A program made the translations under genes and the position numbers. The notes under the pieces are model-generated. The model was not told the DNA's origin, did no database searches, and worked only from the letters and a program-made list of their open reading frames with translations. From positions 94,571,319 through 94,635,318 of the forward strand of contig CP136066.1 of the NCBI GenBank assembly GCA_032622095.1: 64,000 nucleotides of DNA, written 5' to 3'. The stretch is from Siphonodentalium dalli (Eukaryota > Mollusca > Scaphopoda > Gadilida > Siphonodentaliidae). Positions 4,307 to 52,342 of this stretch are shown here, in pieces. How positions within the stretch are numbered: the stretch's first letter is position 1; each line of letters begins with the position of its first letter.

Positions 4307-5150
4307 ACAAGTGATACTTAATTCCGAGTTAAATGTTATATACCGGAACAAGTGATACCCAATTCCGAGTTCAGTGATACCTGAGACAAGTGATACCCAG
4401 TTCCGAGTTCAGTGATACCTGAGACAAGTGATACCTAATTCCGAGTTCAGTGATACCCGAGACAAGTGATACCTAATTCCGAGTTCAGTGATACCTGAGA
4501 CAAGTGATACTTAATTCCGAGTTAAATGCTACCCGGGACAAGTGATACCAAATTCCGAGTTCAGTGATACCCGAGACAAGTGATACCTAATTCCGAGTTC
4601 AGTGATACCTGAGACAAGTGATACTTAATTCCGAGTTAAATGCTATATACCGGAACAAGTGATACCCAATTCCGAGTTCAGTTATACCCGAGACAAGTGA
4701 TACCTAATTCCGAGAGTTCAGTGATACCCGAGACAAGTGATACTTAATTCCGAGTTAAATGCTATATACCGGAACAAGTGATACCCAATTCCGAGTTCAG
4801 TGATACCTGAGACAAGTGATACCTAATTCCGAGTTCAGTTATACCCGAGACAAGTGATACCCAATTCCGAGTTCAGTGATACCTGAGACAAGTGATACCC
4901 AATTCCGAGTTCAGTTATACCCGAGACAAGTGATACCTAATTCCGAGAGTTCAGTTATACCCGAGACAAGTGATACCCAATTCCGAGTTCAGTGATACCT
5001 GAGACAAGTGATACCTAATTCCGCGAGTTCAGTGATACCCGAGACAAGAGATAGTGACACCGAGACAAGTGATACCTAATTCCGAGTCCAGTTCTATAAA
5101 AATGACACCCGAGACAAGTGATACCTAATTCCGAGTCCAGTTCTATAAAA
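4307..5150 (+). repeat. 38-bp satellite array
   Basis: About 22 tandem copies of a 38-base unit built from ATTCCGAGTTCAGTGATACC and TGAGACAAGTGATACCTA. Variants alternate (GAGTTAAATGCTATATACC in place of GAGTTCAGTGATACC), giving a higher-order pattern of several units. No target duplication was found at its edges. Confidence 0.9.
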
Positions 5151-9289: not shown

Positions 9290-9803
9290 TCTCATATATA
9301 TTTTGAAGACCTCTGTCTGTATGTATGTTTGTTTGTTTGTTTGTTTGTCTGTCATTTATACAAATCTACGATTCTCGACCGATCGGGACGAAACTTGGTA
9401 CGTGTGTGTAGTTTGACCAGGCGGTGAACGTTGTCGTATTGGCGAGCCCGTGCGGCGCCCGCTTCGCGCATGCGCAGACGAGATCTCGGAAACGGGTGGA
9501 GCTATCGACTTGATATTTGGTATGTGAATGTATCTTGCCCCGGATGCGAATTTTATCGGGTCGCCGAGCCCGTGCGACGCCAGCTTCGCGCATGCGCAGA
9601 CGAGAAATCGGCAACGGGTGGAGCTATCGACTTGAAATTTGGTATGTGAATGTGTCTTGCCCCGGATACGACTTTTATCGGGTCGCCGAGCCCGTGCGAC
9701 GCCAGCTTCGCGCATGCGCAGACCAGATCTCGGAAACGGGTAGAGCTATCGACTTGAAATTTGGTTTTTGAATAGCCCGGACAACGTCGGGCTCATCGGC
9801 TAG
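9290..9803 (+). mobile_element. Helitron-like element F1 (head of the plus-strand train)
   Basis: Starts TCTCATATATATTTTGAAG right after an A (9289), followed by a CTGT/TGTT microsatellite, a unique leader containing CGACCGATCGGGACGAAACT, three tandem units of about 122 bases, then the hairpin GCCCGGACAACGTCGGGC (9775-9792), a 7-base spacer and CTAG (9800-9803). TC start, hairpin plus CTRR end and insertion after A are Helitron hallmarks; the microsatellite plus tandem core also recalls Helentron-derived HINE/DINE elements. It has diagnostic variants (CTTGATATTTGG, GGATGCGAATT, TCGGCAACGGG) shared with 51694-52342. Confidence 0.85.
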
Positions 9804-10378
9804 TCTCATATATATTTTGAAGACCTCTGTCTGTATGTATGTTTGTTTGTTTGTCTGTCATTTATACAAATCTACGATTCTCGACCGATCAGGACGAAAC
9901 TTGGTACGTGTGTGTAGTTTGACCAGGCGGTTGACGTTGTCGAATTGGCGAGCCCGTGCGGCGCCCGTGCAGCGCATGCGCAGACGAGATCTCGGAAACG
10001 GGTGGAGCTATCGACTTGAAATTTGCTATGTGAATGCATCTTGCCCCGGATACGAATTTTATCGGGTCGCCGACCCCGTGCGACGCTAGCTTCGCGCATG
10101 CGCAGACGAGATATCGGAAACGGGTGGAGATATCGACTTGAAATTTGGTATGTGAATGTATCTTGCCCCGGATGCGAATTTTATCGGGTCGCCGAGCCCG
10201 TGCGACGCCAGCTTCGCGCATGCGCAGACGAGATCTCGGAAACGGGTGGAGCTATCGACTTGAAATTTGCTATGTGAATGTATCTTGCCCCGGATACGAA
10301 TTTTATCGGGTCGCCGAGCCCGTGCGACGCCAGCTTCGCCCATGCGCAGACCAGATCTCGGAAACGGGTGGAGCTATC
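9804..10378 (+). mobile_element. Helitron-like element F2, 3' end missing
   Basis: Starts TCTCATATA directly after the CTAG of the preceding copy. Four tandem units follow, but it stops inside a unit at GAGCTATCG and runs straight into the next head, with no hairpin or CTAG. The junction could be a deletion or template switch during rolling-circle replication. Confidence 0.8.
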
Positions 10379-11003
10379 GTATATATATATTTTGAAGACC
10401 TCTGTCTGTCTGTTTGTATGTATGTTTGTCTGTCATTAATACAAATCTACGATTCTCGACCGATCGGGACGAAACTTGGTACGTGTGTGTAGTTTGACCA
10501 GTCGGTGGACGTTGTCGTATTGGCGAGCCCGTGCGGCGCCCGTGCAGCGCATGCGCAGACGAGATCTCGGAAACGGGTGGAACTATCGACTTGAAATTTG
10601 CTATGTGAATGTATCTTGCCCCAGATACGAATTTTATCGGGTCGCCGAGCCCGTGCGACGCCAGCTTCGCGCATGCGCAGACGAGATCTCTGAAACGGGT
10701 GGAGCTATCGACTTGAAATTTGCTATGTGAATGTATCTTGACCCGGATACGTATTTTATCGGGTCGCCGAGCCCGTGCGACGCCAGCTTCGCGCATGCGC
10801 AGACCAGATCTCGGAAACGGGTGGAGCTATCGACTTGAAATTTGGTTTTTGAATAGCCCGGACAACGTCGGGCTCATCGGGGTCGCCGAGCCCGTGCGAC
10901 GCCAGCTTCGCGCATGCGCAGACCAGAGCTCGGAAACGGGTAGAGCTATCGACTTGAAATTTGGTTTTTGAATAGCCCGGACAACGTCGGGCTCATCGGC
11001 TAG
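10379..11003 (+). mobile_element. Helitron-like element F3 with a duplicated 3' end
   Basis: Head TATATATATATTTTGAAG, then tandem units. A first hairpin and TCATCGG spacer occur at 10855-10880 but, instead of CTAG, another half unit begins, and a second complete hairpin with CTAG ends at 11003. This suggests terminator read-through at the first end. Confidence 0.8.
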
Positions 11004-11390
11004 TCTCATATATATTTTGAAGACCTCTGTTTGTTTGTCTGTTTGTATGTATGTTTGTCTGTCATTGATACAAATCTACGATTCTCGACCGATCGGGACG
11101 AAACTTGGTACGTGTGTGTAGTTTGACCAGGCGGTGGACGCTGTCGTATTGGCGAGCCCGTGCGGCGCCCGTGCAGCGCATGCGCAGACGAGATCTCGGA
11201 AACGGGTGGAGCTATCGACTTGAAATTTGCTATGTGAATGTATCTTGCTCCGGTACGAATTTGATCGGGTCGCCGAGCCCGTGCGACGCCAACTTCGCGC
11301 ATGCGCAGACCAGATCTCGGAAACGGGTAGAGCTATCGACTTGAAATTTTGTTTTTGAATAGCCCGGACAACGTCGGGCTCATCGGCTAG
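11004..11390 (+). mobile_element. Helitron-like element F4, shortest copy
   Basis: A 387-base copy with head, microsatellite, leader, two tandem units, hairpin and CTAG at 11387-11390. Loss of whole units explains the short length. Confidence 0.8.
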
Positions 11391-11968
11391 TCTCATATAT
11401 ATTTTGAAGACCTCTGTCTGTCTGTCTGTATGTCTGTCTCTGTCTGTATGTCATTGATACAAATCTACGATTCTCGACCGATCGGGACGAAACTTGGTAC
11501 GTGTGTGTAGTTTGACCAGGCGGTGGACGTTGTCGTATTGGCGAGCCCGTGCGGCGCCCGCTTCGCGCATGCGCAGACGAGATCTCGGAAACGGGTGGAG
11601 CTATCGACTTGAAATTTGCTAAGTGAATGTATCCTGCCCCGGATACGAATTTTATCGGGTCGCCGACCCCGTGCGACGCCAGCTTCGCGCATGCGCAGAC
11701 GAGATCTCGGAAACGGGTGGAGCTATCGACTTGCCGGTGCGACGCCAGCTTCGCGCATGCGCAGACGAGATATCGGAAACGGGTGGAGCTATCGACTTGA
11801 AATTTGCTATGTGAATTTATCTTGCCCCGGATACGTATTTTATCGGGTCGCCGAGCCCGTGCGACGCAAGCTTCGCGCATGCGCAGACTAGATATCGGAA
11901 ACGGGTGGAGCTATCGACTTGAAATTTGTTTTTTTAATAGCCCGGACAACGTCGGGGTCATCGGCTAG
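11391..11968 (+). mobile_element. Helitron-like element F5
   Basis: Complete from TCTCATATA to CTAG (11965-11968). One unit is partly deleted near 11733, where ATCGACTTG joins CCGGTGCGACGCC, and one hairpin base differs (GTCGGGGT). Confidence 0.8.
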
Positions 11969-12528
11969 TCTCATATATATTTTGAAGACCTCTGTTTGTA
12001 TGTTTGTATGTTTGTATGTATGTTTGTCTGTCTGACATTAATACAAATCTACGATTCTCGACCGATCGGGACGAAACTTGGTACGTGTGTGTAGTTTGAC
12101 CAGGCGGTGGACGTTGTCGTATTGGCGAGCCCGTGCGGCCCCCGCTTCGCGCATGCGCAGACGAGATATCGGAAACGGGTGGAGCTATCGACTTGAAATT
12201 TGCTATGTGAATGTATCTTGCCCCGGATACGAATTTTATCGGGTCGCCGAGCCCGTGTGACGCCAGCTTCGCGCATGCGCAGACGAGATCTCGGAAACGG
12301 GTAGAGCTATCGACTTGAAATTTGGTATGTGAATGTATCTTGCCCCGGATACGACTTTTATCGGGTCGCCGAGCCCGTGCGACGCCAGCTTCGCGCATGC
12401 GCAGACCAGATCTCGGAAACGGGTAGAGCTATCGAAATTTGGTTTTTGAATAGCCCGGACAACGTCGGGCTCATTGACTTGAAATTTGGTTTTTGAATAG
12501 CCCGGACAACGTCGGGCTCATCGGCTAG
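11969..12528 (+). mobile_element. Helitron-like element F6 with a doubled terminal block
   Basis: Head to CTAG (12525-12528). The AATAGCCCGGACAACGTCGGG block occurs twice, near 12449 and 12498, the first without CTAG, again as if the first end had been read through. Confidence 0.8.
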
Positions 12529-13887
12529 TCTATTATATATTGTGGAACTTCTGTCTGCCTGTCTGTGTGTATATGTGTAATAGACACGAAACCTGCTCGA
12601 CCGATCCTACTCAAATTTGGTATGCAGGCCTACTTTGATCCCGGGGACAATATAGGCGGGTCCAATTCCACGTGCGATCGTGTCCTTGACCTTGCTCATA
12701 TACGCTCATAAAGGCAAGTTTCTGGATCGATCAAACAATAGTTTGCCCAGACGCTGTATACAGGGATGTGGCTAGAGGGTGGTGGGGGTGTCTCACCCCC
12801 CCCCCCCAGCAGAGAGCTATATTTTCAATAGTTGGAAATTTCATACTTGCCACAACGAAATTTCACACCAACAATAGGTTGAAAATGTTTTTGTAGTTCG
12901 ATTATAAAACAATTTATTGGGGGGAATTTATTGTTTTTCGACCAATATTTGCATATGTTCCTATTTTTGGTCAAAATTTTTGACAGAAATGAACATCAGT
13001 TGGAAATTTTCCAACCTTAGGGGGGTGACAGGTTGGAAATTTCCAACACTTGGAAAGCTTGTGACCTGGTCCCTCCCCCGTGGCCAGTCAAAAACTTCTA
13101 GTTAATTTAAGAAAACAATATTGTCATACAATTGGTCAACATTGTCATTGGAATTGTCATCAGTTGGAAATTTTCCAACCTAAGTGGGGGTGTAGGGTTT
13201 GGAATTTCCAACAGTAGGAAGGCTTGAGGTTAGTCTAGATGTTAAGATTTTGCGAAACAATATTTTACTACATTTGGTCAAACTTGTAGACATAAATGGT
13301 CATCAGTTGAAGAATTTTCCAACCTGAAGGGAGCATGAGGTTTGAAATTTCCAACACTAGGAAAGCTTCAGTTGAGGCCAGTCTAGATGCTAGGATTTGC
13401 GATTTTCTTGTATATAGTTTTCAAAATTTTCTCACACCGGGCCAAACAACCATGGTCGGCCCGGTGTTTCCTGGTCTGTTGTCGGTATCTGTGTGCATTT
13501 GTCTGGAATTAGATCACTTTTTTCAGGTTAAAATATCTTAATGTTCTCATACTGGGAAAAAAGCATGGCTTATGAATATATAGGAAATTAGGCCTGAGCA
13601 TGAGGTACAAGGGGGGGGGGGGTGCAAATGGAATTATGCAAAAAGTTATGTTGGTGCGATTCCGACTGAAGGGGGGGGGGGGTGCAAATGGAATTATGTA
13701 ACAAGTTGTGTTGGTGTGATTCCGACTCAAGGGGGGGGGGTGCAGTTGGAAATTCCCAAGGTGAACACCCCCCCAGCGGAGACCCTCTAGCCACATCCCT
13801 GTGTATATTCTGCCCAGATGGAGGCGATCACAACGAAATCCCTAAATAGCCCGGACGAAGTCGGGCACATCAGGGCACATCAGCTAA
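12529..13887 (+). mobile_element. Helitron-like element F7, different subfamily, interrupted
   Basis: Starts TCTATTATATATTGTGGAAC directly after the previous CTAG, has a CTGTCTGC microsatellite and a different core, and ends with the hairpin GCCCGGACGAAGTCGGGC, then CACATCAG and CTAA (13884-13887) before a T. The stem is kept while the loop differs from the other subfamily. A CAGGG-ended element (12761-13801) is inserted in it. The A-T pair bounding the whole train (A at 9289, T at 13888) fits Helitron target preference. Confidence 0.8.
12761..13801 (+). mobile_element. CAGGGATGTGG-ended DNA transposon, copy 1
   Basis: Perfect 19-base terminal inverted repeats CAGGGATGTGGCTAGAGGG (12761-12779 and complement 13783-13801), flanked by TGTATA on both sides (12755-12760 and 13802-13807). 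The interior is rich in TTGGAAATTTCCAAC-type short palindromes and has three G-tract units of about 70 bases (G-runs at 13611, 13672 and 13731). There is no transposase. The ends resemble hAT ends, but a 6-base duplication is short for hAT, so I leave the superfamily open. Other copies: 14508-15423 (split), 25665-26075 and 30392-32003. Confidence 0.85.
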
Positions 13888-17926: not shown

Positions 17927-18460
17927 CTTAATTTCAATATTTTATTTGGGTGATCCAATAAAATAAACAACATATATAGGAAGCACCAATACTTTGAAAT
18001 GTGCAAGTGAATAAATTGAAATAACTTATAATATTTAAGTCATATATGAGTTTATAGTTTAGTAAATTTGTTGAGGTAAATTTGAGTTTATAACTGTAGT
18101 TTTTCCTTATTGCTCGCGTAATTGACGGATATATAGACACATTTGGTTTGTTTATCGATGCCAATGTTTGAGGGGTTAACCGATATTTGCGCTTTAATTT
18201 TGTACTAAAGTTGCACATGAATGACATGTTCTATCTGATACGTTATAGTTATTGGTATTGTGTAACTTCCAATCTCGATATGTAAACTGTGTGCACTTAT
18301 TCTGAGTTTAGTGATTTCTTTTATCAAATTTGTTAACTTTAAGATGTGAACCACTCCACTGATGTGTTCAGAACGGAATAAACAAAGAATAGTGCAAAAA
18401 ATAAGTTATTTTCATAAATTTGACAACAAAATAGGCAGAAAACAGCGTAATTTAAAAAAA
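17927..18460. other. Intron sequence, nothing recognised
   Basis: AT-rich intron; no feature supported. Confidence 0.5.
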
Positions 18461-18940
18461 ATGAATTACATGCAGTGGTTATAAAATGAATTACATGCAG
18501 TGGTTATAAAATGAATTACATGCAGTGGTTATAAAATGAATTACATGCAGTGGTTATAAAATGTATTACATGCAGTGGTTATAAAATGAATTACATGCAG
18601 TGGTTATAAAATGAATTACATGCAGTGGTTATAAAATGAATTACATGCAGTGGTTATAAAATGAATTACATGCAGTGGTTATAAAATGAATTACATGCAG
18701 CGGTTATAAAATGAATTACATGCAGTGGTTATAAAATGTATTACATGCAGTGGTTATAAAATGAATTACATGCAGTGGTTATAAAATGAATTACATGCAG
18801 TGGTTATAAAATGAATTACATGCAGTGGTTATAAAATGAATTACATGCAGTGGTTATAAAATGAATTACATGCAGCGGTTATAAAATGTATTACATGCAG
18901 TGGTTATAAAATGAATTACATGCAGCGGTTATAACATGTA
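18461..18940 (+). repeat. 25-bp minisatellite
   Basis: About 19 near-identical copies of ATGAATTACATGCAGTGGTT plus ATAAA. Variants are limited to GTATTA for GAATTA and GCAGCGG for GCAGTGG, and these recur at intervals, so blocks of units were probably copied together. Lies in the long intron of the ABCG8-like gene. Confidence 0.95.
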
Positions 18941-19165
18941 TTGGCGGAATCATTGCCGTAATGTTTATGTCCAATAAATCGTCCCGAATGAAGTAGTAAA
19001 TATTTATATTTGTGCGTGTTCTCTGAAATGGCACAGTCGATGTGGCCGGAATTGTCAATAATCTTAGTTGATTGCTACATAATTCCAGCGGAGAAAGTGT
19101 TTGGTTACTAACTTATCGGATTAATGGGTTCACTTATAAAAGTGTTCATTGCAATATATAGTCCG

Positions 19166-29275: not shown

Positions 29276-29663
29276 TAGTAGTATTAGTAGTTGTAGTGTA
29301 GTAGTTTATAGTAGTATAGTATGAGTAGTAGTAGAAGTAGTAGTTTAGTATTATAGTAATGTAGTAATAATAGTAGTGTAGTAGTGTAGTAGTAGTAGTG
29401 GTAGTAGTAGTAGTAGTAGTATAAGTAGTGTATTAGTACTAGTAGTAGTGTATTAGTAGTAGTAGTCGTAGTAGTGTAGTAGTAGTATTAGTGTAGTAGC
29501 AACAGCAGTAGTAGTAGTATGAGTAGTAGTAGTGTAGTAGTATTAGTAGTAGTATGAGTAGTAGTAGTGTATTAGTAGTAGTAGTAGTGTTGTAGTAGTA
29601 GTGGTGTAGTAGTATTATGACTAGTAGTAGTAGTGGTGTAGTAGTATTATGAGTAGTAGTAGT

Positions 29664-29696
<33 letters not shown>

Positions 29697-30319
29697 TGAG
29701 TAGTAGGAGTGTAGTAGTATTGTAGTAGTATGAGTATTAGTAGTGTATTAGTAGTAGTAGTAGTAATAGTAGTGTTGTAGTAGTAGTAGTGGTGTAGTAG
29801 TATTATGAGTAGTAGTAGTAGTGTATTAGTAGTAGTAGTAGTAGTAGTGTAGTAGTAGTAGTAGTAGTATTATTATTATTATTAGTAGTAGGGTATTATT
29901 AGTAGTAGCGTAGTGGTAGTAGTGTAGTAGTAGTGTAGTATTAGTATAGTAGTAGTAGTAGTAGCAGCAGTGGTGTAGTAGTAGTAGTAGTAGTAGTAGT
30001 AGTTGTGTAGTGGTAGCAGTAGGAATAGTAGTGGTAGTGGTGTATTAGTAGTAGTAGTGTAGTATCAGTATAGTAGTGTAGTAGTAGTAGTGTAGTAGTA
30101 GTAGTATAATAGTGTGGTAGTAGTAGTATTAGTAGTGGTATGAGTAGTAGTAGTAGTAGTAATAATAGTGTAGTGGTGGTAATAGTAGTAGTGGTGTAGT
30201 AGTAGTAGTAGTAGTAGTAGTGTAGTAGTAGTGTAGTAGACTAGTAGTAGTAATACTAGTAGTAGTAGTAGTAGTAGCAGTAGCAGTAGCAGTAGTAGTG
30301 GTGGTGGTCGTAGTAGTAA
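29276..30319 (+). repeat. Kilobase-long AGT trinucleotide microsatellite
   Basis: About 1,040 bases of AGT repeats interrupted by GTGT, ATT and GTATGA variants. On the minus strand it gives chance Leu-, Tyr- and Thr-rich frames, not a gene. Confidence 0.97.
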
Positions 30320-34073: not shown

Positions 34074-34464
34074 GTACGGTGGCTGGATGAGGACATGGGA
34101 AATTTTATTTTTATCTCGTTTAAACGAGATAACTATCTCGTTTAAACGAGATAGCAGATGGGAAATTTTATTTTAATCTCGTTTAAACGAGATAACTTAT
34201 CTCGTTTAAACGAGATAAGGGAGATGGGAAATTTTATTTTTATCTCGTTTAAACGAGATAACTTATCTCGTTTAAACGAGATAGCAGGTGGGAAATATTA
34301 TTTTTATCTCGTTTAAACGAGATAACTTATCTCGTTTAAACGAGATAGCAGATGGGAAATTTTATTTTTATCTCGTTTGAACGAGATAACTTATCTCGTT
34401 TAAACGAGATAGTTATAATACAACAGTTACTAGTGGCCAGTCCAGACGGTTGCACCGGGAATGG

Positions 34465-35632: not shown

Positions 35633-35873
35633 GGACTGGCCACTAGTAACTGTTGTATTATAACTATCTCGTTTAAACGAGATAAGTTATCTCGTTTAAA
35701 CGAGATAAAAATAAGATTTCCCATCTGCTATCTCGTTTATACGAGATAAGTTATCTCGTTTAAACGAGATAAAAATAAAATTTCCCATCTCTTATCTTGT
35801 TTAAACGAGATAAGTTATCTCGTTTAAACGAGATAAAAATAAAATTTCCCATGTCCTCATCCAGCCACCGTAC

Positions 35874-41675: not shown

Positions 41676-42772
41676 ATGACATCACCAACAACCATCACAA
41701 CCACGCCGATCTCCCGAACATCACCAACAACCATCATCACCACACCGATCTCCCGAACATCACTAACAACCATCATCGCCACACCGAACTCTCGAACATC
41801 ACCAACAACCATCATCACCACACTGATCTCCCGAACATCACCAACAACCATCATCACCACACCAAACTCGCGAACATCGCCAACAACCATCATCACCACA
41901 CCGATCTCCCGAACATCACCAACAACCATCATCACCACACCGATCTCCTGAACATCACCAACAACCATCATCACCACACCGATCTCCCGAACATCACCAA
42001 CAACCATCATCACCACACCGATCTCCCGAACATCACCAACAACCATCATCACCACACCGATCTCCCGAATATCATCAACAACCGTCATCACCACACCGAT
42101 CTCCCGAACATCACCAACAACCACCATCACCACACCGATCTCCCGAACATCAACAACCATCATCACCACACCGATCTCCCGAACATTACCATCAACCATC
42201 ATCACCACACCGATCTCCCGAACATTACCAACAACCATCATCACCACACCGATCTCCCGAACATCACCAACAACCATCATCACCACACCGATCTCCCGAA
42301 CATCACCAACAACCATCATCACCACACCGATCTCCCGAACATCACAAACAACCATCATCACCACACCGATCTCCCGAACATCACCAACAACCATCATCAC
42401 CACACCGATCTCCCGAACATCACCAACAACCATCATCACCACACCGATCTCCCGAATATCACCAACAACCGTCATCACCACACCGATCTCCCGAACATCA
42501 CCAACAACCATCATCACCACACCGATCTCCCGAACATCAACAACAACCATCATCACCACACCGATCTCCCGAACATCACCAACAACCATCATCACCACAC
42601 CGATCTCCCGAACATCACCAACAACCATCATCACCACACCGATCTCCCGAACATCACCAACAACTATCATCACCACACCGATCTCCCGAACATCACCAAC
42701 AACCATCATCACCACACTGATCTCCCGAACATCACCAACAACCATCATCACCACACCGATCTCCCGAACATT
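41676..42772 (-). repeat. 39-bp minisatellite, open on both strands
   Basis: About 28 copies of CATCACCAACAACCATCATC plus ACCACACCGATCTCCCGAA. Because the unit is a multiple of three without stops, it stays open for 378 codons on the minus strand (unit VREIGVVMMVVGD) and 91 on the plus strand. One unit lacks exactly three bases. No signal peptide, promoter or splice context supports a protein. Confidence 0.93.
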
Positions 42773-44870: not shown

Positions 44871-44879
44871 GAGATGGGT

Positions 44880-44965
44880 TAACACACTCACACCCTCACA
44901 CGCACACACACACCCTCACGCACACACACACACACACACACAGATTTCCCAAAATATATAATAGA
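44880..44965 (-). mobile_element. Helitron-like element E11, 5' end only
   Basis: On the minus strand TCTATTATATATTTTGGGAA follows directly after the preceding CTAG, then a TG microsatellite. No 3' end is found below this point. Confidence 0.55.
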
Positions 44966-45286
44966 CTAGCCGATGAGCCCGACGTTGTCCGGGCTATTCA
45001 AAAACAAAATTTCAAGTCGATAGCTCCACCCGTTTCCGAGATCTGGTCTGCGCATGCGCGTAGCTGGCGTCGTACGGGCTCGGCGACCCGATAAAATTCG
45101 TATCCGGGGCAAGATACATTATCACTTGATTAAACACCGCAGTGCCGTTTTTTTGTGACTGAGATTGGAGAACGGGTGCTCTGAGCTTCTCCAAAACGCG
45201 ACCACGGCGGTGTCGGTGGGATTTTACACTTACATAGGAAGTTTGAGCTCAATCTGTACACGCGTTTTAGATTCTATGAAGTACAC

Positions 45287-45319
<33 letters not shown>

Positions 45320-45342
45320 CGGAAGTCTCAAAATATATAGTA
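44966..45342 (-). mobile_element. Helitron-like element E10
   Basis: Ends with hairpin GCCCGGACAACGTCGGGC and CTAG (44969-44966). Head is TACTATATATTTTGAGAC, i.e. the TC start mutated to TA, followed by a TA microsatellite. Single 122-base unit plus a unique segment. Confidence 0.7.
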
Positions 45343-46481
45343 CTAGCATGGTAGCCCGCCACCGGCGGCTTGTCCGAAACATTGTTTATATTTTTTTTTT
45401 ATTTTTAGCTCCACGCGTTTCAATAAGAAAAAATTGTACCCGGTAGCTCCACCCGTTTCCGAGATCTGGTCTGCGCATGCGCGAAGCTGGCTTCGCACGG
45501 GCTCGGCGACCCGATCAAATTTGTACCCGGCCCAAGATACATTCACATAGCAAATTTCAAGTCGATAGCTCCACCCGTTTCCGATATCTCGTCTGCGCAT
45601 GCGCTGCACGGGCGTCGCATGGGCTCGCCGACCCGATAAAATTTGTACCCGGCGCAAGATACATTCACATTGCAATTTTCAAGTCGATAGCTCCACCCGT
45701 TTCCGAGATCTGCCTTTTTAATCGAGATAAATGCATTTCGTACTCGTCCTAATGTACTATTTCGAGCGATAACAATTGTCAGACTCCCATCGTGAACCTC
45801 AACACGAAGTAAACACGTGTTTCGAGCGATAACATTGCATTGAAGTCAGACTCCCATCGTGGACCCCCAAGACGACGTAAACACGTGTTTGTTCCCGTAT
45901 AACTCTGGAGACTCTGACTTCATATATATATATAATGACGTTATTAACCCCGGCCGTGCCGTTTGAGCTGATTTTAATGACTGGGAGTGGAGTACGGGTG
46001 CTCGGAGCTTCTGGAAAACGCGAGGACGACATCGTACGTGGGTTTTACCTCTAGATGGGAAGTTTGAGCTCAATCTGTCCAGCCGTTGTACTATTTCGAG
46101 CGATAACAATTGTCAGACTCCCATCGTGAACCTCAACACGAAGTAAACACGTGTTTCGAGCGATAACATTGCATTGAAGTCAGACTCCCATCGTGGACCC
46201 CCAAGACGACGTAAACACGTGTTTGTTCCGGTATAACTCTGGAGACTCTGACTTCATATATATATATAATGACGTTATTAACCCCGGCCGTGCCGTTTGA
46301 GCTGATTTTGATGAATGGGAGTGGAGAACGGGTGCTCTGAGCTTTTCTAAACTGCGACTACGGCGGTGTCGGTGGGATTTTACACTTACATACGAAATTT
46401 GAGCTCGATCGGATCAGTCGTTTTGGATTCTATGAAGTACACACATATATATATACGAAGTCTCAAAATATATAGTATAGA
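45343..46481 (-). mobile_element. Helitron-like element E9, alternative hairpin
   Basis: Ends with GCCGCCGGTGGCGGGC, TACCATG, then CTAG (45346-45343), a different hairpin from the common one. Head TCTATACTATATATTTTGAG. It contains two 122-base units near its 3' end and a 334-base tandem duplication. Confidence 0.75.
45761..46428 (-). repeat. 334-bp tandem duplication inside E9
   Basis: TTCGAGCGATAACAATTGTC begins at 45761 and again at 46095, and the copies remain nearly identical through the GTTCCCGTATAACTCTGGAG and ATATATATAATGACG parts. Confidence 0.85.
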
Positions 46482-47475
46482 CTAGAAGGTGACCCGACTT
46501 CGTCCGGGCTATTCAAAAACCAAATTTCAAGTCGATTGCTCCACCCGTTTCCAAATTTCAAGTCGATTGCTCCACCCGTTTCCTAGATCTGGTCTGCGCA
46601 TGCGCGAAGCTGGTGTCGCACGTGCTCGGCGACCCGATAAAATTCGTATCCGGGGCAAGATACATTCACATACCAAATTTAAAGTCAATATCTCAACCCG
46701 TTTCCGATATCTCGTCTGCGCATGCGCGAAGCTGGTGTCGCACGTGCTCGCGACTTCGTCCGGGCTATTCAAAAACCAAATTTCAAGTCGATTGCTCCAC
46801 CCGTTTCCTAGATCTGGTCTGCGCATGCGCGAAGCTGGTGTCGCACGTGCTCGGCGACCCGATAAAATTCGTATCCGGGGCAAGATACATTCACATACCA
46901 AATTTTAAGTCGATAGCTACACCCGTTTCCGAGATATATAGCCCAATGTCATTTGCGGATACCTCGGCCGGTGATGAGTTAACGCGACACAGTCAAATGC
47001 ATCGGCAGGGTGAGAGTTAACGTAATCTAGCTTTATGACCTCTGACGACGTCATAGAAATTACGCATTGATTTTATCCTGATAAAAGCATCGTACCACTT
47101 GTACCTAATAATTGAGGCAGATAACTAAAACGGATACATACATATTATATATCTTTGGAAAGATGAAGCCACACAGATTCTAACCGTGCAAATTATATGA
47201 CTGGCAATTTATTATTCGCGCTATATCGAATCGATTTGTGAGCACCGAACTGAAATATATTAGCGCAAAAACGGCGTAAAAACAGATTTGACCTCCGCAC
47301 GTGAAAAGTTGACCTCGCACGGACAAATAAATATGCCTATGTTCGTCTCCGGCCGAAAACACATCCAAATACCAAATTTCATCGAAATTGGCTTAGTCGT
47401 TTTGGAGTCCATCGATTTCAAACACACAAACACACACACACACAAACACACAGATCTTTCAAAATATATAATAGA
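46482..47475 (-). mobile_element. Helitron-like element E8, composite core
   Basis: Hairpin GCCCGGACGAAGTCGGGT, then CACCTTCTAG (CTAG 46485-46482). Near its 3' end is a doubled unit (46500-46560) and a joint at about 46750 where GTGCTCG runs into CGACTTCGTCC, a read-through-like duplication of the terminal block. The 5' half (46975-47460) is shared with 49965-50440. Confidence 0.75.
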
Positions 47476-47998
47476 CTAGCCGATGAGCCCGACGTTGTCC
47501 GGGCTATTCAAAAACCAAATTTCAAGTCGATAGCTCTACCCGTTTCCGATATCTGGTCTGCGCATGCGCGAAGCTGGCGTCGCACGGGCTCGGCGACCCC
47601 GATGAGCCCGACGTTGTCCGGGCTATTCAAAAACCAAATTTCAAGTCGATAGCTCCACCCGTTTCCGAGATCTCGTCTGCGCATGCGCGAAGCTGGCGTC
47701 GCACGGGCTCGGCGACCCGATAAAATTCGTATCCGGGGCAAGATACATTCACATACCAAATTTCAAGTCGATAGCTCCACCCGTTTCCGAGATCTCGTCT
47801 GCGCATGCGCGAAGCGGGCGCCGCACGGGCTCGCCAATACGACAACGTTCACCGCCTGGTCAAACTACACACACGTACCAAGTTTCGTCCCGATCGGTCG
47901 AGAATCGTAGATTTGTATAAATGACAGACAGACAGACAGACAAACAAACAAACAAACAAACATACATACAGACAGAGGTCTTCAAAATATATATGAGA
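47476..47998 (-). mobile_element. Helitron-like element E7
   Basis: Complete minus-strand copy of the 122-base-unit subfamily: TCTCATATA head, CTGT/TGTT microsatellite, leader, three units, hairpin, CTAG. The terminal block is duplicated at 47600-47640. Confidence 0.85.
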
Positions 47999-49067
47999 CT
48001 AGCAGGTTAGCCCGCCACTGGCGGCATTCGTCCCATGGCTTTGTTTCAGAAACATGACATTTTTGTAATTATTTTGTTTTTATTTATTTTTGTTTTTTAT
48101 TTTTGAATATGAATTTAATGTTTTTTAAATTTAATATATTTTGTTTCTGAATTGTTTTTTTATTGTTAATTTTTTTTAATTTTAAATTGTTTTAATTAAA
48201 TTGTAAATTGTTTTATTTAATTTTTTTGTTTCTGGCGGAAAAATTTACCCGTAGAAATCCCCCCCCCCTTCCTAGAAACGACAGACAACGCATTCTTTGT
48301 TTCGCGAAATCTCTCTACGATAACATTGCATTGAATTTAAAACAAACGCTTCCCGTCGGGAAATCTGTCTTCGGGTCGTTGTTGTTGGCATCACGGCTCC
48401 CCGAAAACTCTCACATTGCCGAAAACGTGTATTTAGTAATATCGTTGTTGTTGATATTTACGGCTTGGGGGCTATTTTCTTATTTAGCAAGTTTGAGCTC
48501 AATCGGTTAGAGTCTATAAAGGACACACTCATATATATGACACTTCCCGTAGGTAGCAAGTTTGAGCTCAATCGGCATTCCCTGGAATATCCCGTAGATT
48601 GGCAGATTCCAGTAGCTTTATAACGGTATATCTGAGGAGAAATCTGATGCTATATTCGTGATTATCTGGGATGATTTCGGTATATACCAAAGGTATATAC
48701 TGTAAAAACAGAGCGCGCCATCCGTGCTCGCTGGGAATAAATTTCGAGCGATAACGTTTGCGTTCCCGTATAACTCTGCATATGCGAATAACGTTGAATG
48801 GGAAACAGACGCTCTTTATAGAGATGCGTCAAAAACAAACGCTCATTAAATAATCACTTGATTAACCCCCCGCCGTGCCTTTGCGGTGATTTGAGATTGG
48901 AGAACGGGTGCTCTGAGCTTCTCTAAACCGCGACTACGGCGGTGTCGGTGTGATTTTACACTTACATACGAAATTTGATCTCAATCTGTACACGCGTTTT
49001 GGATTCTATGAAGTACACACACACACACACACACATATATACGAAGTCTCAAAATATATAGTATAGA
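47999..49067 (-). mobile_element. Helitron-like element E6, alternative hairpin
   Basis: Ends GCCGCCAGTGGCGGGC, TAACCTG, CTAG (48002-47999), a second example of the GCCGCC hairpin class. Head TCTATACTATATATTTTGAG then CA/TG microsatellite. Its core shares CGATAACGTTTGCG-type and TTGAGCTCAATC blocks with E9. The 100-codon frame at 48208-48510 lies within repeat sequence and is not counted as a gene. Confidence 0.75.
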
Positions 49068-49649
49068 CTAGAAGGTGACCCGACTTCGTCCGGGCTTGGA
49101 CCTTGAATTGACCATTTTGAAGGTCACGGTCAAGTGGGTTAACGATTTGACCCGTCCAAAACACTGCCCGGACAAAAGTACCCGACAAAAGTACCCGTCG
49201 AAATCCATCCGGTTTTACCGATTTGACCTTGAATTTATCATTTTGAAGGTCAAGGTCAGGTCGGGGTCACGATTTGACCCGTCCAAAACACTCAGTGGAC
49301 AAAAGTAACCCATCAAAATTGGCGATTTGACCTTGAATTGACCCGATTTCAAGGTCAAGGTCACGTCGCACGGGCAAATGAATATGCTTCTGAGACTCCC
49401 GATACGAAAGTACCCCCACATACCAAGTTTCATCGAAATCCCGTGATATTCGGGCGTTTGACCTTGAAATCACCCGAGTGCAAGGTCAAGGTCACGTCGC
49501 ACGGGCAAATTAATATGCCTATGCCACTTCCTGGCCGAAAATACCCCCACATACCAAGTTTCATCGAAATCGGATAGGGCGTTTTCGAGTTCATCGCGAA
49601 CACACACACAGACAGACAGGCAGACAGATCTTCCAAAATATATAATAGA
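49068..49649 (-). mobile_element. Helitron-like element E5, GACCTTGA subfamily
   Basis: TCTATTATATATTTTGGAAG head, CTGTCTGCC microsatellite, units with GGTCAAGGTCA and TTTCGATGAAACTTGGTAT, hairpin and CTAG (49071-49068). Its core matches the array at 3190-3761. Confidence 0.8.
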
Positions 49650-50450
49650 CTAGAAGGTGACCCGATTTCGTCCGGGCTTTGACCTTGAATTGACCATTTT
49701 GAAGGTCAAGGTCAGGTGGGGTCAAACACCAACACCCCAAAAAATGGTGGAAATCGGCCCAGCGGATACCGGGAAATCGGCCCAGCGGATACCGAGATAC
49801 CCTATGCATCAAATTTCGTCCGTAAAAATCCGCCAGTTTAACCGATTTGATTTCCACTCAAGTATATAAACGCGCCTCATATACACACGCTCATTAATTA
49901 TCAAGTTTCAACGTAAAGATAAATTACCATCGGTGCCCGAGATATCGCCAAGACGTCTGAAACAGTCAAATGCATCGGCCGGTTAAGCGTTAACGTGATC
50001 TAACGTTATGACATCTAACGACGTCATAGAAGTTACGCATTGTTTTTATCCTGATGGAAGATAGTACCACTTCTTCTTGATAATTGAGGCAGATAACTAA
50101 AACGGATACATACGCATTATATATCGTTGGAAAGAGGAAACACGAAATATTCTCACAGTGTCATTATTATGACTGGCATTTTATTATTCACGCTGTTTCG
50201 AATCGATTTGTAAGCACCGAACTCAAATGAAAGTCCCGTAACACAGCGTAAAAACAGATTTGACCTCGGCACGTGAAAAGTTGACCTCGGATCTGAAAAT
50301 CAATATGCCTATGCCACTTCCCGACCGATAGTACCCTCACATACGAAGTTTCATCGAAATCGGGTCGGCCGTTTTCGAGTTCATCGCCAACACACACACA
50401 CACAGACACACCAAACACACACACACAGATCTTCCAAAATATATAATAGA
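49650..50450 (-). mobile_element. Helitron-like element E4
   Basis: Head TCTATTATATATTTTGGAAG with TG microsatellite, CTAG end at 49653-49650 preceded by the GACGAA-loop hairpin. A 24-base block (AAATCGGCCCAGCGGATACC) is tandemly doubled at 49749-49795. The 49965-50440 part is the sister of 46975-47460. Confidence 0.75.
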
Positions 50451-50453
50451 TAG

Positions 50454-51151
50454 ATAGCCGATGAGCCCGACGTTGTCCGGGCTATTCAAAAACCAAATTT
50501 CAAGTCGATAGCTCCACCCGTTTTCTAGATCTGGTCTGAGCATGCGCGAAGCTGGCGTCGCACGGGCTCGGCGACCCGATAAAATTCGTATCCGGGGCAA
50601 GATACATTCACATAGCAAATTTCAAGTCGATAGCTCCACCCGTTTCCGAGATCTCGTCTGCGCATGCGCGAAGCTTGCGTCGCACGGGCTCGGCGACCCG
50701 ATAAAATTCGTATCCGGGGCAAGATACATTCACATACCAAATTTCAAGTCGATAGCTCCACCCGTTTCCGAGATCTCGTCTGCGCATGCGCGAAGCTGGC
50801 GTCGCACGGACTCGGCGACCCGATAAAATTCGTATCCGGCGCAAGGTACATTCACATAGCAAATTTCAAGTCGATAGCTCCACCCGTTTCCGAGATCTCG
50901 TCCGCCTGGTCAAACTACACACACGTACCAAGTTTCGAGTCGATAGCTCCACCCGTTTCCGATATCTCGTCTGCGCATGCGCTGCACGGGCGTCGCACGG
51001 GCTCGCCAATAACGACAACGACGACCGCTTGGTCAAACTACACACACGTAACAAGTTTCGTCCCGATCGGTCGAGAATCGTAGATTTGTATAAATGACAG
51101 ACAGACAAACAGACAAACAGACAGACAGAGGTCTTCAAAATATATATGAGA
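50454..51151 (-). mobile_element. Helitron-like element E3
   Basis: 122-base-unit subfamily, about four units. The end reads CTAT instead of CTAG. Near 50900-50940 a unit is joined directly to leader sequence (TCCGCCTGGTCAAACTACAC), as if an internal leader copy had been captured. Confidence 0.75.
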
Positions 51152-51693
51152 CTAGCCGATGAGCCCGACGTTGTCCGGGCTATTCGACCCGATAAAATTC
51201 GTATCCGGGGCAAGATACATTCACATACCAAATTTCAAGTCGATAGCTCCACCCGTTTCCGAGATCTCGTCTGCGCATGCGCGAAGCTGGCGTCGCACGG
51301 GCTCGGCCACCCGATAAAATTCGTATCCGCGGCAAGATACATTCACACCCCAAATTTCAAGTCGATAGCTCCACCCGTTTCCGAGATCTGGTCTGCGCAT
51401 GCGCGAAGCTGGCGTCGCACGGGCTCGGCGACCCGATACAATTTGTACCCGGCGCAAGATACATTCACATAGCAAATTTCAAGTCGATAGCTCCACCCGT
51501 TCCCGAGATCTCGTCTGCGCATGCGCGAAGCGGGCGCCGCACGGGCTCGCCGATACGACAACGTCCACCGCCTGTCAAACTACACACACGTACCAAGTTT
51601 CGTCCCGATCGGTCCAGAATCGTAGATTTGTATTAATGACAAACAAACAAACAAACATACATACAGACAGAGGTCTTCAAAATATATATGAGA
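51152..51693 (-). mobile_element. Helitron-like element E2
   Basis: Three to four units, CTAG at 51155-51152, head TCTCATATA at 51693. Most of the terminal block except the hairpin is merged into unit sequence near 51185. Confidence 0.8.
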
Positions 51694-52342
51694 CTAGCCG
51701 ATGAGCCCGACGTTGTCCGGGCTATTCAAAAACCAAATTTCCAAGTCGATAGCTCCACCCGTTTCCGATATTTGGTCTGCGCATGCGCGAAGCTGGCGTC
51801 GCACGGGCTCGGCGACCCGATAAAATTCGTATCCGGGGCAAGATACATTCACATAGCAAATTTCAAGTCGATAGCTCCACCCGTTTCCGAGATCTCGTCT
51901 GCGCATGCGCGAAGCTGGCGTCGCACGGGCTCGGCGACCCGATAAAATTCGTACCCGGGGCAAGATACATTCACATACCAAATTTCAAGTCGATAGCTCC
52001 ACCCGTTGCCGAGATCTCGTCTGCGCATGCGCGAAGCTGGCGTCGCACGGGCTCGGCGACCCGATAAAATTCGCATCCGGGGCAAGATACATTCACATAC
52101 CAAATATCAAGTCGATAGCTCCACCCGTTTCCGAGATCTCGTCTGCGCATGCGCGAAGCGGGCGCCGCACGGGCTCGCCAATACGACAACGTTCACCGCC
52201 TGGTCAAACTACACACACGTACCAAGTTTCGTCCCGATCGGTCGAGAATCGTAGATTTGTATAAATGACAGACAGACAGACAAACAAACAAACAAACAAA
52301 CATACATACATACAGACAGAGGTCTTCAAAATATATATGAGA
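51694..52342 (-). mobile_element. Helitron-like element E1 (head of the minus-strand train)
   Basis: Starts TCTCATATATATTTTGAAG after an A (complement of T at 52343), has the longest CTGT/TGTT microsatellite, four units, hairpin and CTAG. Its first unit carries the CTTGATATTTGG, GGATGCGAATT and TCGGCAACGGG variants found otherwise only in F1 at 9290-9803. Confidence 0.85.

Follow-up and report, generated by a model that had tools for sequence, protein, structure and literature searches.

In the genome of the scaphopod Siphonodentalium dalli, a stretch of 64,000 nucleotides (GCA_032622095.1, contig CP136066.1, positions 94,571,319 to 94,635,318; hereafter the window) carries a minus-strand train of Helitrons joined directly head to tail. 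Such trains have probably grown, in the main, by serial insertion at the 5' end of a resident element or 4 bp inside it. The evidence was observed directly in the DNA: the joint sequences and their counts, the polarity with which families adjoin, the bracket-like bookkeeping of displaced bases in sampled chains, the target motif, and copies of RepHel enclosed by ends of family A, one of three element families described below. From these observations we infer that the joining is brought about by Rep acting on the left end of the resident. The elements would be non-autonomous canonical Helitrons that are mobilised by Helraiser-like RepHel proteins and stack into a train. The transposase would join the incoming CTAG end to DNA nicked between A and T, favouring an A|T with a TATATA-like tract behind it; the resident left end would supply such a site (A|TCT..TATATAT), and heads of family C would offer a second one 4 bp inside (TCTA|TACTATAT). 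Each landing at a resident 5' end would remake the outer site, and mixed-family trains would thereby grow head to tail. A landing at +4 would act as an opening bracket, with TCTA displaced to a position before the inserted block and the resident resuming as CTAG|TAC. In the window, the block of E4 to E9 would sit within the head of E10.

The train runs from 52342 to 44874 and contains eleven Helitron heads, of which E1 to E10 are followed by a tail and E11 is a fragment. A sequence-only reading had placed at least ten Helitron-like elements on this strand, and its coordinates were right. The joints are exact CTAG|TCT at 8 of 10 positions, and the remaining two are altered and informative: the E3/E4 joint reads CTA-TCTA-TCTATTATAT, and the E9/E10 joint reads CTAG|TACTATAT, the TCTA being gone. 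The heads sort into three main families, for which the usable patterns are TCTCATATATATTTTG (family A), TCTATTATATATTTTG (family B), and TCTATACTATATATTTTG (family C); by these heads E1, E2, E3, and E7 belong to A, E4, E5, and E8 to B, E6, E9, and E10 to C, and E11 is B-like. The head pattern proposed earlier, TCTNATATATTTTG, had to be given up: it matches none of the eleven heads and finds 1,659 places genome-wide against 287 in the control. The parts of the train, all on the minus strand, are as follows.

51694..52342, minus strand: E1, family A, non-autonomous; opens the train, with a host A in front (GTGATA|TCTCAT)
51152..51693, minus strand: E2, family A
50455..51151, minus strand: E3, family A; the tail ends ...CGGCTA, without the last G of CTAG
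50451..50454, minus strand: extra TCTA, interpreted as bases 1 to 4 of the E10 head, which the inserting E4-E9 block would have pushed upstream
49650..50450, minus strand: E4, family B; extra TCTA directly in front
49068..49649, minus strand: E5, family B; GACCTTGA-type repeats
47999..49067, minus strand: E6, family C
47476..47998, minus strand: E7, family A; the tail hairpin has a second, internal copy
46482..47475, minus strand: E8, B head and B tail; core with A-type 122-bp units
45343..46481, minus strand: E9, C head and C tail; core with A-type units
44966..45342, minus strand: E10, C head cut at +4, beginning TACTATAT directly behind the E9 CTAG; with a unit of A type and an A tail
44874..44965, minus strand: E11, B-like head and (TG)n; tail-less fragment whose low end is approximate and set by the authors

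The joint pattern of the window is far beyond chance. Across the 2.2 billion bases counted, exact CTAG|TCT joints occur 22,550 times, and once in a control of reversed letters. Exact heads with A in front, including those behind a displaced TCTA, number 22,059 (control 20); the comparison of these two figures takes in heads preceded by CTAG or by A. Exact B heads occur 13,333 times (control 0), and among 47 of them listed at C1:1.0-13.75 Mb and matched by hand, CTAG stands in front of 23, A in front of 22, and neither in front of 2. About 70 kb on the minus strand (G000 C1:13716765-13786342) are rich in listed Helitron joints, and the 50 kb read at C1:13738300-13788000 hold repeated multi-element blocks and a RepHel copy.

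B tails were matched at 12,000 places genome-wide (control 2), and among the first 100 listed every one is followed by T at +1; a head comes next in 24 of them, a head that is cut or variant in 5, and other DNA in 71. The 45 unique targets outside microsatellites share a TATATA-like profile at +4 to +11, giving the motif A|TNN(N)TATATA, to which the heads themselves are similar. Such similarity is what would be seen under passive clustering, in which AT-rich heads are met by chance during A|T insertion and no special recognition takes place. Scored with the target profile, the A boundary reaches 6.1, the B boundary 6.7, and the C+4 site 9.2, the median target being 7.6; among the A|T sites of the window these rank in the top 2.2%, 1.6%, and 0.12%, respectively. 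Chance encounter is nevertheless improbable as the main cause. Joints per head are about 200 times as frequent as insertions per equally scoring A|T site, a crude scaling that uses occurrences, the background of one window, and exact heads only. Moreover, the C boundary as a target scores only 2.4, about 7 bits below C+4, yet family B lands on it about as often as on the +4 site (212 against 243 places). The exact left end therefore draws insertion beyond what its local letters would explain, which is what a transposase would do for which the left end of a resident is equivalent to its own nick site.

The altered joints carry a mark of a different kind. If an element inserts at the A|T inside the TCTA|TACTATAT that C heads hold, the missing TCTA must stand before the inserted block. 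C heads cut at this internal site and lying right behind another CTAG (CTAG|TACTATATATTTTGAGAC) occur at 1,827 places, with none in the control. Within the parsed chains, a TCTA without a partner stands further upstream in the chain for 12 of 15 cut C heads, and 3 could not be judged, the start of their chain lying outside the DNA fetched; no cut head among the 15 has its chain start in view and lacks the upstream TCTA. In the 42 chains with the start in view, an extra TCTA is found in 4 of 4 that contain a cut head and in 0 of 38 that do not (Fisher 8.9e-6). In the window, one such pair is made up of the TCTA surplus at 50451-50454 and the cut head of E10 at 45342, and within it E4 to E9 presumably entered one by one rather than as a block. 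A first parse of the chains had given 5 with both marks, 5 with the extra TCTA only, 5 with the cut head only, and 56 with neither (p 0.003); it was rejected, having split one array at an internal pseudo-head and taken host ATCT runs as remnants.

Neighbouring elements are frequently of different families, and their order has a direction. Parsing of 123 joints (loci L001-L040 and the window) gave 35 A-A, 27 A-B, 4 A-C, 15 B-B, 3 B-C, 8 C-A, 2 C-B, 14 C-C, 15 others, and no B-A; genome-wide, exact A-before-B joints number 3,038 and B-before-A joints 320 (control 0 for both). The 5' partner of an A-B joint is of the less diverged family, the median between-train distance being 5.2% for 40 A elements and 11.9% for 27 B elements. 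B is also more diverged than A in 36 of 36 comparisons among nine usable A-B pairs. The partners of these pairs look independent of each other (Mantel r -0.04, p 0.59), and the nearest relative of the A member stands in the same pair as that of the B member in 0 of 9. This Mantel test, which replaced a first run on 4 pairs, uses 9 of the 27 parsed A-B joints and is made without the C1:13.7 Mb array, the second L005 copy, L015, incomplete A elements, and B elements of <400 bases. The kinship and age comparisons are likewise made without any element from the C1:13.7 Mb array or from the second L005 copy, and the age test also without L015. That 49 of 49 first heads are preceded by A is true by construction of the parser and was not used as evidence.

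These data bear on the possibility that the trains are rolling-circle concatemers, in which a circle with joined CTAG|TC ends is copied repeatedly, or the 3' terminator is bypassed, and the multimer is inserted at once. The direct joint is identical to the circle joint of Helraiser as given in passages of PMC4778049, and some neighbours are indeed identical: three C copies of 1,125 bp stand in a row with 0 differences, and two copies of 1,140 bp nearby also show 0. A further family with a different tail hairpin has 214 exact joints (control 0) at near-equal spacings, and at C2:141.79 Mb two RepHel matches are separated by 8,571 bp, and an A tail is joined exactly to an A head between them. Concatemers alone, however, give no heterotypic joints such as the 3,038 of A-B and 212 of B-C unless a mixed train existed before, nor do they produce heads that are cut at an internal A|T and have their missing bases standing upstream. 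In same-family adjacent pairs, moreover, some copy other than the neighbour is closer to the 5' element in 15 of 17 A pairs and 9 of 11 B pairs, the figure for C being 3 of 6. As the principal route, concatemers are thus rather unlikely. Since runs of identical copies exist, concatemers or local duplication seem to contribute as well, both routes being in operation, and some of the identical runs probably go back to multimers made by rolling circle or to duplication on the spot.

Unequal crossing-over and segmental duplication, by which recombination between repeats would have multiplied a few ancestral trains, leave traces of their own. Multi-element blocks are repeated in the C1:13.74-13.79 Mb array and in locus L005; one stretch, C2:103.71-103.80 Mb, holds 17 of the first 100 listed B-before-A places (counted by eye); and paralogous loci at C1:9.93/9.94 Mb (L014/L071 and L015/L070) represent a duplicated locus with common flanks and with C, A, and B elements at 1.6-3.6% divergence. 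Against such an origin for the trains in general, most first heads in view follow an A, the upstream flanks as printed vary between loci, T stands behind 100 of 100 listed B tails, and cut heads are matched by displaced TCTA. As the main explanation, duplication is accordingly held to be very improbable.

Several observations weigh against serial insertion at resident left ends. The counts are of sequence occurrences, not of events, and part of them comes from amplified arrays. No order of age within families could be detected along the trains, the 5' neighbour being the younger in 9 of 17 A, 7 of 11 B, and 2 of 6 C pairs, and in family A train mates are slightly closer to each other than to copies of other trains (0.042 against 0.052). 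The identical runs belong here too. In one of the C1:9.93/9.94 Mb paralogues a further B element, diverged by 17-18% from the other B, is placed precisely between the A and the B element; it either entered at a CTAG|TC joint (G|T, not A|T) or was cleanly lost from the other copy. The idea of the bracket rule was itself taken from the window and the C1:13.7 Mb array, and 3 of the 12 matches come from these two, the other 9 from arrays fetched later; the classification of chains was tightened after the looser first parse had been seen; because of this refinement, confidence in left-end insertion was lowered slightly. Finally, long arrays contain more TCTA than the rule requires (ARR1 +1, ARR2 +3, ARR3 +2), and chain L037, whose start is out of view, has an extra TCTA and no cut head in view; these surpluses are put down, without proof, to slippage. 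Left-end insertion is still considered the probable main route.

The structure of the elements had earlier been described as modular ends with interchangeable cores. The different cores on which that description was based, namely 122-bp units, GACCTTGA units, and CGATAACA units, are all present in the train, and the part concerning cores holds to some extent: the 122-bp unit is found in all three families (69 of 69 A, 9 of 36 B, and 11 of 18 C elements, at the score used), so some cores have moved between families. The ends, on the other hand, are mostly matched pairs and not modular, since among the complete elements parsed the head is of the same family as the tail in 68 of 69 A, 31 of 36 B, and 17 of 18 C elements. 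E10 is a chimera of a C head and an A tail. The four cases of a B head with an A tail all lie within the C1:13.7 Mb array, and some at least may be artefacts of parsing at altered joints.

The designation as Helitron-like can be made stronger, as the elements of the window are canonical Helitrons: they start with TC, end with a hairpin and CTAG, and target A|T. All A, B, and C heads begin with TCT. The terminal CTAG follows a hairpin with stems AGCCCG/CGGGCT or CCGCC/GGCGG, although the stem scan is not passed by every tail of the train and B tails were identified by sequence. Insertion between A and T is seen in the T behind every listed B tail and the A before 22 of the 47 listed B heads. 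Helentrons (Helitron2) lack a CTRR end; the elements described here, with A|T targets and CTAG ends, do not belong with them.

An autonomous RepHel element with the same ends had been sought, and one was found for family A; for family C the 5' ends only were seen (heads upstream of three RepHel open reading frames, 3' ends not seen), and for family B none was identified among the RepHel copies examined. The A-family frame at C2:141.79 Mb encodes 1,649 amino acids (aa) with the families Helitron_like_N (PF14214), PIF1 (PF05970), and STPR, one HSH motif at 728, and YVCKY at 868; residues 203-1622 match chain 7lcc (Helraiser K1068Q) with E 2.8e-267. The stretch after this frame closes with an A tail, and an A head stands directly next to it. 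In the C1:13.74-13.79 Mb array (50 kb), a RepHel copy lies inside a train, between an A head and an A-type tail, and at C4:119.32 Mb a solo copy starts A|TCTCAT and ends CTAG|TAAG. A sample of ten RepHel copies was inspected where their ends were expected: 2 have an A head, 3 a C head, and 2 belong to a family that has a different tail hairpin and direct joints, while in 3 no A, B, or C head was seen on the 5' side; both ends were seen in 1 of the 10. Copies with the same ends exist by the thousands, and intact RepHel elements with A-type ends exist as well, so neither outcome named beforehand as refuting the earlier reading was observed. A separate, lower-scoring group of RepHel matches (G000 C8:4875782, C4:255311255, and others) has open frames of about 1,800-2,900 aa and is perhaps, at a guess, Helentron-like.

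A possible and decidedly tentative extension is that the left end doubles as a landing pad: a single DNA-reading module of RepHel, possibly the N-terminal STPR repeats, would read TATATA both at the nick site of the element itself and at targets, each insertion would rebuild the next site, and trains would record the order of arrival. The Pfam STPR family was detected in 4 of 5 RepHel proteins scanned (L001, L002, L067, and L069; four of the five are partial), and the fifth, L068, has STPR-like repeats by eye; N-terminal repeats of this kind occur in several lineages of RepHel. The STPR domain of silkworm FMBP-1 binds an AT-rich 9-mer, according to the portion of PMC4821344 concerned with it. 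The strict FMBP-1 site ATNTWTNTA is lacking in the heads A, B, C, C+4, and D, and of the heads compared that of the further family alone contains it; for this reason a link between STPR repeats and heads is a guess, to be taken as a lead only. A literature search for STPR and Helitron together returned no match, which says nothing beyond the collection searched.

Other repeats are also present in the window. Two arrays of 64-bp tandem units around the palindrome TATCTCGTTTAAACGAGATA occupy 34095-34412 and 35664-35857; satellite-like arrays lie at 41679-42771 (39 bp x28), 18458-18942 (25 bp x19), and 4307-5053 (38 bp x19); and TAG repeats extend for about 1 kb at 29276-30318. A second train lies on the opposite strand, and in it, at 10384, an A head core occurs without TCT and with no CTAG in front.

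9290..12528, plus strand: the window's first train, made up of family A elements in head-to-tail order; a B-like head comes next, at 12529

Among known systems, the closest is Helraiser/Helibat (Helitron1 of vespertilionid bats). The sections of PMC4778049 describing it report TC and CTAG ends, a 3' hairpin, A|T targets with an AT-rich preference mainly on the 3' side, and end-joined circles, and the RepHel match to 7lcc adds to the likeness. Unlike in that system, exact heads in S. dalli stand directly behind CTAG about as often as behind A, and the N-terminus of RepHel has STPR repeats, which the alignment to 7lcc does not cover. Cg_HINE of Crassostrea gigas and the DINE-1/HINE elements are similar in being non-autonomous rolling-circle elements with satellite-like or tandem-repeat contents: in Cg_HINE satellite-like cores and flanking modules are combined in unique ways (PMC7492417), and some DINE-1-like copies contain microsatellites or tandem repeats (PMC4067079, in part). 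They are, however, classed as Helentrons, whose insertion preference is T-rich according to a passage of the latter source, whereas the elements of the window have CTAG ends and A|T targets.

Head-to-tail clusters of Helitrons are likewise known from bats, silkworm, plants, and Drosophila, and a triple copy from Metarhizium. Passages of PMC4067079 give a bypassed terminator as the supposed source of the tandem clusters of bat and silkworm and mention that distantly related Helitrons sometimes directly adjoin in bat and maize. For the Metarhizium triple copy, the relevant part of a Fusarium paper (PMC5148889) leaves insertion at the 5' end or rolling circle open and discusses self-insertion. 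In a silkworm Helitron paper (PMC3789558) none of the cluster terms searched is present. Tandem Helitrons have also been cited as support for rolling-circle copying (PMC5876387, in the passage concerned); if most joints are insertions at resident left ends, this inference needs care. The thousands of joints provide material on target choice by a eukaryotic HUH transposase, and nested TCTA marks could yield the order of arrival without dating. Unlike the clusters described before, those of S. dalli comprise 22,550 exact joints in one genome, together with polarity and displaced-TCTA marks that help to separate the routes. The elements are thus of a known kind and their clusters of a known kind; it is the scale that is unusual, and the marks left in the sequence speak for the left ends of residents as the place where most insertion occurred.

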